Assembly: GCA_964017155.1 (NCBI GenBank)
Contig: OZ024854.1
Coordinates: 48,322,423 to 48,386,422, forward strand
Reading direction: 5' to 3'
Length of the DNA: 64,000 bases
From: Oasisia sp. SBJ-2009
Taxonomy: Eukaryota; Annelida; Polychaeta; Sabellida; Siboglinidae
The notes below the pieces were generated by a model. The model made no database searches and had not been told where the DNA came from. It worked only from the letters and a program-made list of their open reading frames with translations. Shown here one piece after another: positions 1 to 55,500 of this stretch; position 1 is the first letter of the stretch; each line of letters begins with the position of its first letter. Made by a program: the position numbers and the translations under genes.

Positions 1-94
1 ACAATGTGGAAGAGCATGGAGTGATGAAGACACTTACAATGTGGAAGAGCATGGTGTGATGAAGACACTTACAATGTGGAAGAGCATGGAGTGC
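1..94. repeat. 35-bp tandem repeat spanning the MKLN1 exon 13 donor
   Basis: Two full 35-bp units plus the exon copy are visible, and the array continues left of base 1. Read on the minus strand, each unit holds the last 21 nt of exon 13 (ending TTCCACATT) followed by the donor GTAAGTGTC and a few intron bases. Every unit therefore carries a complete 5' splice site. The exon-proximal copy at 67-72 (acttac on plus) is the one used in the gene model. Confidence 0.85.
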
Positions 95-3000
95 CCAATG
101 CGGGAGCGTATCTCCGGGCAGTCGTCTCGCAGCTTCTTCCAAGTGTTGGTGGGGACGTGGTACGAGTAGAGGCCACTGAATGTCGGGTCAGCACTGGACC
201 GCTGACCCTCCGGACTGCTGGACAACAGACTGACCGTCATTTGATGTGTGTATGTAGGGGTAAGTGGAACAAGCGAACACACGAGGATGTGGAGAAGACC
301 AGCTCGCACACACAATGAACCCACGCACATATTTAGTGGAATCCCTATATAGACCATGCAATTCATTCCAAAAATAAATATTCGTTCATTCATTCATTCC
401 TTAATTAGCTCCGCTGTCTGACAGGAATCGTACATGATATAATTGATTGTTATATTTGTTGTATATACATACTGTTTGCTTTGAACGATTCCAAAAATAA
501 ATATTCATTCATATTCATACCCACTGAAAGTAATTTTCTGTTATATCACATCATTCCGGAAATATAGATGGATTTGCCAATTCAATTCACGCGGGCATCT
601 GTTTAATTGTTAAAACACTAGTAGTTTGTTTACTGGTATTGCCAAAGATTCTGACATTTCTTAAGTTGATGCTTATTTCTACCTGACATTTATTTCTGCA
701 ATGAGATCAGAGAACACATTTACACACTGAAACAACACAAGTGGAATGAGAGAGAGACACAACTTGCCAGGTGAGGACGCGGCCACCAAACACAAACAAC
801 TGCTGTTTCTCTACATCCATCACCATTTGATGGTCAAAGATGAGCTGTGGTCCTCCCATCGCGCCGGTGTCTTCTGTAATCAACGTCCACTTGGCACTCT
901 CTGTGTCATACATATAGAAGTCACTCTGAAACACCATCCCAAATACAATTGTGATTTAACCTTACAGGTGACCAATGGTAATTTCCACGGTGTACATTGT
1001 TTGGAGCTATTTATATGGGTATCTTAGAAAAATCACTGTGTCGCCAATAATTACCCTAGAAAAATAACTGATGCATCAGTGTTAAGCTAAAAAATACCTC
1101 TACAACATAAAAATAACAGCCACTACATTTATTGATGTTATCATATAGATAAAATCATCCACAATTCAACAAAAATATCAAGGAAATTTAGGCATTTCAC
1201 CCTGCTGCTAGATAATTATCCAGTGGTCAGATCCCCATATGTCCAATTATGAAATGTCAACACATATATCAGCTACAAAATAAAATAAACCTGAAAGAAA
1301 TCCATCCAAAACTTTTGTATACGTTTTTTATGTAAACTAGACCGTGAAACTTATTGGCGATTTTTACAAACAAATAAAATGGAAAGTAAGTAATGAAATA
1401 CTTCCATACTGCAATCAAATAATTACTGAGCGGTTGAATGCTGACATATACTGTGAACCAAATGCTGATATGGACATAACCTACAAGATAATGCAAAAAA
1501 GAAGCACACATGTTGATTTTTTTTACACATTTTATAACGAATACAACAGAAAATCAAACACCAAATGTCAATGTTCTGCCTCAGCTGGCGCACTGTCAGT
1601 GGCATTACACCTGTCGGTTCTTGTGCACAAGGTTACAAAAGCAATGCTTGTGCACCCCAGACCCACACCCAGTACGAGCTTGGCTTTCGTACCCCTTGCG
1701 AACGGTCTGAACAGACAACACAATCTCGCTCCTGCCTGCCAGGAAGATGCTGCAGTTGAAGCCCCTCGGGCACTGGGTTGAGGTGCTGCTGCTGGTTGGC
1801 AGCTGCTTCTGCTGCTGCCAACACCATTGACGCCACAGAGACTAGAGCACCGAGCAGATGAAGTCATGGCGGGTCGTCCGTCGTCTGCGGTCCGTGTTGG
1901 TGTGGTACAGCTCGAAGCTGTTCAGCAGAGCCAGGTCCATCAAGTTGAAGAAAATCTTCTTCCAGAATCTCTGCTGACACGTGGTAGATCTTGCGGTCAC
2001 TCAGGTCGACCCCGCCCATGTAGCGGTTGTAGTCGGCAACGCACTTTGGTTTCCGTCCAGCTGCAGTTCGGACGTCTGCAATGCCAGCCGCTGCGTTTGT
2101 GCTCAGCAAGAGCACAGGTTTCTTCTGAGACCTCTTCTCTCTGAACGCGACGACCAGCGTGTCGTTGCGGCAGAGGTTCAGGCACTCTACAACCTGCAGC
2201 CTGGTCGGGATAACAGGGAGGCCTCTCGAGTTGGCACGAACTGTGCCAGTCAGCAGCGTACCATCTCTACAAGTACACAGGACCTCAGCCACTGCTGGCT
2301 TCGTATAGTAGTTGTCCATGAAGAGCTGGTAGCCCTTGTTGAGGAGGTCGTCTTCCTCATCAGGTCCATCACCACTCCATGTGCCTGGCCCATGTCACTC
2401 TGTATCGAGAAGTCTTTCCCAGCATACAGCTCAATGTGAATCACGTAGCCGCTGGTTGCATCACAAAGTTCAAACTTCTTGATGCTAAATCTGGAGTGGC
2501 GTTTGTTCGGCATATATTGGATATATGCCATACGATTCTGCATCCCCACATCTCATCGATGGAGATGCACCGCACTGATGCAGTAAGAAGTGCGTCTTGA
2601 AGGTCTCGTTCAAGGCATCGAGTACATGTTCTGCGGATCAAAGTTGGCTCTCCATGTGGTGCAGCGTCCTGAACGCCGACTTGAAACACCTGCTGGCGCA
2701 TCGATAAAATCGGTGGTACGACATCACCCATCCGAAGTACGGCGTGATCTGGGAAGGGTTGCGCCGTGACCAGTAGTCCTTGACGTTCTTCGGATGATGC
2801 TCATGCAGATGCATAGCCCCAGGTACTGCTTCAGCCGCTTCAGTGTCACGTCCGCCATCTGCCATCTCGTCATGCGGGTGGTAGGAGATCCAGCCGGCCA
2901 GGTCCCGGAGCGTCGCCTCGCCATACGCAACCGTGTTGCGCAGCGTCGTCCTCATGGTGGCAGTCGTGAAGAGCAGGAGGAAGTAGATGATTGGGGACGA

Positions 3001-52496: not shown

Positions 52497-52542
52497 TACG
52501 TAATATCTCTATTGTCATCTTCAGAACCATGTCATCTCGTCT

Positions 52543-55500
52543 TTAGTATTGGCCATCTTTGTTGTCCTTTTTCGGGCTTTCAAACGGTCCAGGGAGAATC
52601 CGTCCGAGCCGTTCCATCGCCTTCCTGGGACCCTCGTAGATCTGCTTCAGTTCCTCCTCATCTACCTCTGGTACGTCGAACATGTCGCTCCGCATGACGT
52701 AGTCATCGCTGCCTATGGACGCGCTGCGGAACACGTCGTCATCGTCCTCGTCTACGTAGGATGGCGGGATGAGAGCGGCAGCCACGTAGCGCTTCTCAGA
52801 GTTGAGGAAGTTGAAGGTCGACAGGGCCTGGTCCTGCATGGGTCAATACATGATCTATAGAGTCTGGTCATACATGGGTCAATACATGATCTATAATAGA
52901 GCCTGATCCTGCATGGGTTAATACATGATCTATAATAGAGCCTGGTCCTACATGGGTCAATACATGATCTATAGAGTCTGGTCCTACATGGGTCAATACA
53001 TGATCTATAGAGCCTGGTCCTACATGGGTCAATACATGATCTATAGAGTCTGGTCCTACATGGGTCAATACATGATCTATAGAGTCTGGTCCTACATGGG
53101 TCAATACATGATCTATAGAGCCTGGTCCTGTCATGGGTCAATACATGATCTATAGAGCCTGGTCCTGTCATGGGTCAATACATGATCTATAGAGCCTGGT
53201 CCTACATGGGTCAATACATGATCTATAGAGCCTGGTCCTACATGGGTCAATATATGATCTATAGAGCCTGGTCCTGTCATGGGTCAATACATGATCTATA
53301 GAGCCTGGTCCTGTCATGGGTCAATACATGATCTATAGAGCCTGGTCCTGTCATGGGTCAATACATGATCTATAGAGCCTGGTCCTGTCATGGGTCAATA
53401 CATGATCTATAGAGCCTGGTCCTACATGGGTCAATACATGATCTATAGAGCCTGGTCCTGTCATGGGTCAATACATGATCTATAGAGCCTGGTCCTGTCA
53501 TGGGTCAATACATGATCTATAGAGCCTGGTCCTACATGGGTCAATACATGATCTATAGAGCCTGGTCCTACATGGGTCAATACATGATCTATAGTGCCTG
53601 GTCCTACATGGGTCAATACATGATCTATAGAGTCTGGTCCTACATGGTTCAATACTTGATCTATAGAGTCTGGTCCTACATGATACATGATCTATACAGC
53701 CTGGTTCTGCATGTGTCAATACATGATCTATAGAGCCTGGTCCTACATGATCTATAGAGCCTGGTTCTGCATGTGTCAATACATGATCTATATACCCTGG
53801 TCCTACATGATACATGATCTACAGAGCCTGGTTCTGCATGTGTCAATACATGATCTATAGACCCTGGTTCTGCATGGGTCAATACATGATCTATAGAGCC
53901 TGGTCCTACATGGGTTAATACAATACATGATCTATAGAGCCTGGTCCTACATGATACATGATCTATACAGCCTGGTTCTGCATGCAACACTACATCCTAA
54001 ATGAAACAAGTTATTACACAAAGTTGATCAAATAGACACAGGTCACTGAAACACGTAACCATGTAGGGCTGGGGATGATAAAATGTTCCTCCAGAGTGTT
54101 GGTAATATTGTAGACAAATAACTAAAGAAGGCTCTAGACATTCTTGTACAGCCTCACTGCTACAACTGCATATATGATATATAGGTGGCTAAGAAAAAAA
54201 TAGGAAAAGAAATGTTGATAATGAATGAGTGTAGTGCTAGTACGTGTGGCTAAAGAATTGTTTTGATACAGTTTGATTATAACAATTATTAATGCAAATG
54301 TTACCAACTTGCTTTTTACAACGTCTATGTGGATGCTGCTCAGTACAAATTCCTCAGGAATATCTCTCAACTATGCTGCCAATAGATAATGGAAGACACC
54401 ACAAAATGTACAAAGGTTGTGCGTAGAACATTTATTATCACTCACCGTCGTAAGGATTTCTACGTTGATTCTTTTTGAGCGGAGGTAAAGGATGAGATTT
54501 GAGTTGACTTTTGCCAGATTCTCCCGTTCACCCACTCCCAGCAGTAGCAGGTCTGAAACAGGCTCACTGTGACAGGTCTCGGTCTCATAAAAGTTTCTAA
54601 CATGACAGGAATGTGAGACTTTTATGGATGAACAAGTACTGGCTGTACGGCTAGAGTAGTACTTGATTACCTCGGAGTTTCATTTCACAATGTTGAGTGT
54701 GTTATAAGTAAAACATGTATGTAAAATACAACGGTATAGGTGTGAGTTGAAAATAGGTTATTCAAATGATTCAGAGGATGGGTCCCTGAAAGAATTCTGT
54801 TGCAGATACCTTCCTAATTGACAACCTTATTGGGAAGGAATCATATAACTTGAAACTGAAAAAACCCAGTAATAATACAGATATTCTACAATTCTGTGTA
54901 TCAAGTATATATGCATATTTATATGCATGTATTATGTGTACTTATGTTGTCTGTGGTTTTGTGTATTTGAATCCGTAAGCATGGGTTGCCTGATTAGCCT
55001 ATACACCAACACAGCCAAACCAAATAGAATTGTTTTCCTTTGGTGATCATACCTTTTTGTTCTTGATGGAAATCTTCAATACTGTTAAATAAATAAAAAA
55101 AACTAATGCCATCATAAGGAGCAAAAAATAGAAATAAAATCTAAGCAGGCAATAATTTGTATGTGGTCAAAGCATCCAGTGTTTAAGTGTAGTGTATCAC
55201 AATAAGTACATTATTCTGAAATTTATTTATTGTAGTTCATAAAAAATCACAACATTCCTTCACAAAACCAATCTCACCACACACGCAACATATACAATGC
55301 ACCCACCTATTTTGGGTTCCAATATTGTGAAAAGTGAAAGTGAGTCCTCATCTATATCCTTGGCACCACTCACCTAGAACAAAAACCAGGTGCATCACTT
55401 TGTTTCTTGTAATCAACAAATAGAGTGGTCTCACTGCCGTCTGTGGGGTTACATGACACTGACATGTCATTCCACGCTGGGGCAACATGCCCTCTATTCA

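Follow-up and report, generated by a model that had tools for sequence, protein, structure and literature searches.

Mirage-type minisatellites at splice junctions in the annelid Oasisia sp. SBJ-2009

Why should a minisatellite begin where an exon ends? The question is raised by a stretch of 64,000 nucleotides (referred to here as the window) from the siboglinid annelid Oasisia sp. SBJ-2009 (assembly GCA_964017155.1, contig OZ024854.1, positions 48,322,423 to 48,386,422), in which a sequence-only reading had placed eight tandem arrays on exon-intron boundaries of three genes, MKLN1 (muskelin), CPT2 and NDUFAF3. We determined exon ends with a spliced protein-to-DNA aligner that takes splice-site scores into account, using human MKLN1, CPT2 and NDUFAF3 as queries and the window together with the 10 kb before its start as target, and called arrays with Tandem Repeats Finder (TRF). 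All eight arrays are found at modelled junctions, and most intronic arrays in a gene sample chosen regardless of repeats also sit at splice junctions. The arrays are very probably minisatellites of the 'mirage' type, tandem copies of a short segment of an exon-intron junction.

Five of the eight arrays are at donors and three at acceptors in the spliced models, and seven span the junction with 7 to 35 exonic nt, all as the sequence-only reading had stated. In MKLN1, which is encoded on the reverse strand, a 35-bp array (1..93) spans the donor at 73 with 21 exonic nt and runs on upstream of the window start, comprising 27.8 copies when the upstream part is included; a 56-bp array of 6.2 copies (3118..3467) spans the donor at 3433 with 35 exonic nt and has kept the GT in 5/5 further copies. 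One MKLN1 intron contains two arrays, a 25-bp array of 25 copies (5505..6131) that spans the donor at 6125 with 7 exonic nt, and a 21-bp array of 42 copies (4342..5228) that abuts the acceptor (exon start 4338), its end as called by TRF being 3 nt short of the exon. The last MKLN1 array in the window (7976..8437; 11 copies of a ~40-bp unit) is decayed, with a 76% match, and spans the acceptor whose exon starts at 8003 with 28 exonic nt. In CPT2, on the forward strand, a 44-bp array of 13.5 copies (20623..21214) spans the donor at 20638 with 16 exonic nt, and a 46-bp array of 27 copies (23004..24232) the donor at 23031 with 28 exonic nt. NDUFAF3, again on the reverse strand, contributes a 36-bp array of 32 copies (52826..53984) across the acceptor whose exon starts at 52833, its exonic overlap of 8 nt being obtained by subtraction. 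A ninth, decayed example had been proposed behind a CPT2 exon, and repeats of junction origin can be recognized by eye on the forward strand just past the donor at 18743 (18744..18931), where TRF reports a row of 32-bp units with 2.4 copies (18856-18931). Another CPT2 array, 9.1 copies of a 41-bp unit in intron 9 (21472..21848, forward strand), is off junction, lying 315 nt away from the acceptor. MKLN1 has arrays at another two acceptors before the window start, and its intron 13 is arrayed at both ends. Of 14 intronic arrays in MKLN1 and CPT2, 9 are junction-anchored compared to 3.35 expected, a number that random placement reached in 11 of 20,000 simulations with arrays collapsed to one unit and in 0/20,000 uncollapsed.

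For the blind sample, exons of CCT chaperonins and of carnitine acyltransferases were collected from the assembly (764,102,534 bases in 33 contigs) via Pfam PF00118 and PF00755, respectively. Spliced models of eight CCT genes provided 95 usable introns with 76,580 bp, in which arrays with a unit of at least 10 bp and at least 2.5 copies were counted (shorter units and near-microsatellite TRF rows were excluded) and considered anchored if their edge was located from -60 to +15 of a junction. Two removals preceded the counts: the block at C1:22107000, which matched CCT poorly and had 13 modelled introns, and, among 98 CCT introns, two from the doubtful end of CCT5 and one from the cut end of CCT2; ~17 kb of CCT2 lie outside the counted sequence. 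Nineteen of the 23 intronic arrays were junction-anchored, 15 at acceptors and 4 at donors, while random placement of arrays collapsed to one unit gave 6.36 ± 1.93 with a maximum of 14, and 19 was reached in 0/20,000 simulations. The earlier statement that arrays occur at exon ends beyond chance is therefore borne out by simulation in the window genes and in the CCT genes. The array edge is inside the exon in 13 cases and at most 15 nt outside it in 6 more, and the arrayed fraction amounts to 15/95 acceptors (~1 in six) and 4/95 donors (~1 in 24). Expressed as density, junction zones contain 1.33 arrays per kb and intron interiors 0.066, a ~20-fold contrast per bp that is measured within one genome; the CCT blocks outside the modelled gene spans hold 4 arrays in ~31 kb. 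Seven TRF settings with copy limits down to 2.5 gave stable anchoring. Among arrays with at least 8 copies, 11 of 12 were anchored (10 acceptors, 1 donor), and lowering the limit to 1.9 copies added mostly unanchored rows (20/36 anchored).

A further test was based on the ends of Pfam matches rather than on exact junctions and considered units of at least 12 bp at 81 exons with 162 ends. Here, 13 arrays had their exon-side edge at -60 to +10 (1.15/kb), 11 of them on the acceptor side, compared to 24 arrays in the zone from +100 to +1000 (0.32/kb; rates recomputed from bins). Junction anchoring extends more weakly to other carnitine acyltransferase genes. The sequence-only reading had regarded the feature as not tied to one splice signal, and indeed boundaries of both kinds are hit across the ten genes (19 acceptors, 9 donors; p 0.087); the near-even split seen in the window, however, does not recur in the CCT genes, where acceptors prevail by 15 to 4 (binomial p 0.019).

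Is it the origin of the arrays or their later fate that is linked to the junction? The term used in the sequence-only reading was 'seeded', which does not agree with the distribution of the smallest repeats. Rows with 1.8-2.5 copies are located at a junction in 1 of 18 cases and are otherwise spread through introns (a second row of this class, the one after the CPT2 donor at 18743, is junction-derived by eye), whereas 28 of 36 arrays with at least 2.5 copies are at a junction (p 3e-7; the CCT arrays number 22 in this count, rows having been merged differently from the anchoring count). The difference is retained if the comparison is restricted to units of at least 18 bp (1/12 versus 27/34, p 2e-5) or to units of at least 18 bp with a GC content of at least 0.33 (1/7 versus 27/31, p 5e-4). 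Shuffled introns produced 0 arrays with at least 2.5 copies in 5 replicates and 0-1 rows with 1.8-2.5 copies per replicate. Since two-copy rows are mostly off junction and large arrays on it, growth or persistence appears to be junction-linked more than seeding, and we infer that duplications occur along introns but expand or endure at junctions.

Splice-like sequence within introns offers a comparison for the acceptors. In the interiors of CCT introns, acceptor-like AGs scoring at least as high as the authentic median comprise 2 arrays to 132 un-arrayed sites, whereas of 50 strong authentic acceptors 7 carry an array (p 0.0018); in the ten genes there are 4 arrays to 172 un-arrayed sites, and 8 arrayed among 64 strong authentic acceptors (p 0.0034). 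That unused acceptor-like sites are so rarely arrayed indicates that acceptor use or exon adjacency outweighs the motif as scored, with the restriction that the matching score rewards pyrimidines and leaves the GT-richness of the tract unmatched, so that a GT-rich tract stays a possible cause.

The interpretation of the arrays as mirages refers to amphioxus, where minisatellite-like duplications of exon-intron boundaries, 5' and 3', many copies of which carry AG/GT, are described for Adh3, the globins BflGb6 and BflGb9, and TnC, with PGBD5 being similar; their units measure 10-72 bp at Adh3 and about 150-160 bp in the globins (PMC3087553, PMC3902484). The boundary minisatellites at amphioxus Adh to which the sequence-only reading had pointed are thus the right kind of precedent. 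The annelid arrays share with mirages the boundary-spanning tandem copies, the occurrence at both boundary types, the retained splice signals and a similar unit size. They differ in their annelid host and in copy numbers of up to 77, and our analysis adds a measured excess over the intron interior, a blind gene set, an acceptor bias in the CCT genes and a distinction between two-copy duplications and arrays that have grown. On the other hand, length instability in germline and soma and normal mRNA splicing in spite of the extra signals are demonstrated for amphioxus mirages, whereas the annelid arrays are known from the DNA of one assembly. Searches of the open-licence literature retrieved no mirage outside amphioxus. 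Closest in host are the minisatellites within intron 1 of earthworm metallothionein genes (PMC12783039), which likewise reside in annelid introns and have monomers of minisatellite length, and which that report, in the part available to us, describes without a tie to splice junctions.

In the spliced models, protein continuity is conserved when the exon-proximal copy is used. This copy is presumably the one spliced, and the remaining copies would be transcribed and removed with the intron, so that they would be tolerated at any length. Tandem duplications may arise along introns generally, and those located at a junction in use, particularly at an acceptor, would grow to many copies or persist if a used junction is an unstable place, be it by a link to transcription, to splicing or to chromatin; growth might be aided by units folding back on themselves. 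An R-loop or transcription-linked process, as raised in the sequence-only reading, is a candidate source of such instability. Intron interiors should be equally tolerant yet contain few arrays, and tolerance alone is therefore insufficient, which favours junction-linked instability. Mirage-type arrays that were grown or kept through junction-linked instability are the best explanation as a whole, which we consider about as apt to be right as wrong. The instability itself is a tentative mechanism, and the more general notion that used splice junctions, and 3' splice sites above all, are hotspots of minisatellite growth in this annelid is put forward slightly more tentatively still.

Folding gives the mechanism a hint of support: doubled units of anchored arrays fold slightly better (mean z -0.75) than interior controls (-0.24; one-sided p 0.009) and un-arrayed acceptors (-0.17; p 0.004), as slipped-strand growth would suggest, though this hint is post hoc and one among several tests. 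Several observations weigh against the explanation. Likeness among copies does not point to one mutating end, the exon-near third being more alike than the exon-far third in 10/18 arrays. The comparison with unused sites is not significant for donors: in the CCT genes an array is present at 1 of 48 strong donors, and 0 arrays stand against 19 pseudo-donors (p 1.0); in the ten genes the numbers are 4 of 62 and 0 to 33 (p 0.29). At the 35 blind exons outside the CCT family the excess is weaker (5/70 ends versus 1.6 expected, p 0.025). Two-copy units are shorter and more AT-rich than those of larger arrays and may represent another class, which weakens the step from seeding to growth. In addition, splicing at the exon-proximal copy and instability of the arrays are both deduced from DNA sequence. 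Finally, GT/AG columns look less variable (2/30) than neighbouring columns (66/309; p 0.058), which would not be expected of a purely neutral array.

Two rivals stand out, selection acting on redundant splice sites and uniform duplication, and the last observation bears directly on the former. Tandem splice sites might be useful for exon definition, error buffering or intron length and be favoured once formed, and besides the low variability of the signal columns the location of large arrays mainly at acceptors and a junction-linked step that consists of growth rather than seeding would fit. Most array copies do keep the splice dinucleotide: in 15 arrays with at least 4 comparable copies 28/30 signal columns are invariant, although copies were selected for their resemblance to the authentic one and 6/21 arrays were dropped because of too few copies. 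Pooled over copies, the splice dinucleotide is changed in 22/524 positions and its neighbours in 225/4352; 14 of the 22 changes come from one CCT2 array, and in the array of CCT2 intron 6 the G of the AG is missing from 14/35 copies. Moreover, splice scores do not differ between arrayed and other sites (donors p 0.91, acceptors p 0.26), arrayed sites being neither weaker nor stronger, and the lengths of 28 units show no frame preference (8/8/12 modulo 3), so that the copies do not appear to be maintained as codons. Selection is, in our view, an unlikely explanation.

Uniform duplication would require no hotspot at all: arrays would originate everywhere, exonic ones would be purged, and those touching a junction tolerated as they are spliced out. 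This accounts for arrays that stop within the first exon codons, for the absence of whole-exon arrays and for two-copy duplications that look spread through introns. Selection against arrays reaching deeper into exons, which the sequence-only reading had listed among possible causes, cannot by itself account for the scarcity of arrays farther inside introns. Equally tolerant interiors hold 4 of the 23 CCT arrays and junctions 19. Together with the 20-fold contrast per bp and the comparison with pseudo-acceptors, this disfavours an origin without hotspot, which is likewise unlikely.

A cause in the DNA sequence alone would mean that the acceptor tract is prone to slippage whether or not it is used in splicing. 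The AG of the acceptors in the ten genes follows a GT-rich and A-poor tract in place of a CT-rich one, and the G content of this tract looks higher in 19 arrayed than in 105 un-arrayed acceptors; the sense strand of acceptor units is rich in G and T (GC skew +0.24, AT skew -0.28). However, this composition is absent from donor arrays (GC skew -0.14), and the 2 arrays to 132 unused acceptor-like sites argue against it within the limits of a score unmatched for GT-richness. Composition as the sole cause thus appears improbable.

According to the Rogers model (cited in PMC3087553), an intron is gained when an AG/GT proto-splice site is duplicated in tandem, and that paper puts such an origin forward for amphioxus globins. 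Tandem duplication beside splice signals is common to this model and to the annelid arrays, which would then be remains of newborn introns made from an exon segment. The annelid intron ends are not copies of each other, though, and there is no sign of new introns: the opposite end resembles the unit no better than shuffles in 26 of 27 cases, the exception being the acceptor array of MKLN1 intron 9, whose likeness was reached by 4/200 shuffles. An origin as newborn introns is hence very improbable, and retroposed splicing intermediates, a source considered in the sequence-only reading, find no support in these opposite ends either. No supporting point was found for an introner-like mobile element, also a repeat tied to introns, or for an assembly or detection artefact, both of which are just as improbable: the 28 anchored units are private to their locus and not dispersed, each matching stretches of its own gene only in the ~0.36 Mb searched, 44 TRF units showed no match across loci, and shuffled introns remained free of arrays.

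The gene models behind these junctions differ in strength. MKLN1 (1..12041, reverse strand) has more exons upstream of the window, with 17 introns modelled in all and human residues 10-623 covered; residues 2-735 of the human query are identical to PDB 8ttq. Its intron 12 has a GC-AG donor at position 768 in the spliced model, and a transposase fragment within intron 11 (1864-2394, reverse strand; Pfam DDE_Tnp_1_7, E 5.9e-10) is presumably piggyBac-like. About 190 bp past the last modelled MKLN1 exon, at C1:48312423-48316559, lies a 28-bp array of at least 148 copies and more than 4.1 kb. CPT2 (14173..26024, forward strand) is modelled with 12 introns over human residues 20-652 and is supported by a PDB match to CPT2 and by Pfam PF00755 exons in the same places. 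NDUFAF3 (52762..58032, reverse strand) has a weaker model of 4 introns (score 251); its exon frame matches Pfam DUF498 at E 0.00018, under the curated cut-off of the family, and its pieces had no match in PDB. Outside these genes, long zinc-finger-like exons are seen by eye at 32530-40641 (forward strand), where TRF found no array with at least 2.5 copies and a unit of at least 10 bp. Open frames at 59788-62966 (reverse strand) resemble a non-LTR retrotransposon, with a reverse transcriptase recognized by eye, and the frame at 61627-62571 had no Pfam match; a long simple repeat of the ACACGC type (TRF) is located at 59166-59617. An Rfam scan of the window gave no match. The small contig C32 carries, at 1006-1696 and 2024-3589, 138 copies of a TGCCC repeat and a 70-bp array with 22.7 copies. 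Contig 33 of the assembly (15,483 bases) is mitochondrial, and the ORFs in its first 10,000 bases, named by eye, run nad4L, nad4, a gap suited to the rRNAs, nad1, nad3, nad2, cox1 and cox2, which is the annelid ground pattern; among named entries COX1 matches a Siboglinidae cluster best (86%), followed by polychaetes at about 78%, while the top match overall is a contig at 95%. These data indicate an annelid, probably close to the siboglinids, and not an amphioxus.

The arrays have consequences for gene annotation. Read in the frame of the exon that follows it, the 21-bp MKLN1 array stays open for 387 codons (4172-5335, reverse strand), and a gene finder could thus mistake it for coding DNA; open frames with lengths of 528-819 aa lie beside short CCT exons as well. 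Arrays that are open in frame may therefore be annotated as coding sequence. Beyond that, what was an oddity of a handful of lancelet genes is extended to a distant phylum and quantified, and the question whether splicing, transcription or junction chromatin causes repeat expansion becomes testable. The arrays also raise the question how the spliceosome keeps picking the outermost among dozens of near-identical splice sites, and they bear on the growth of introns. Should splicing, transcription pausing or junction chromatin itself drive the growth of repeats, the genome of this annelid would, by extrapolation, contain such arrays by the tens of thousands, and they would be a main source of its intron length.

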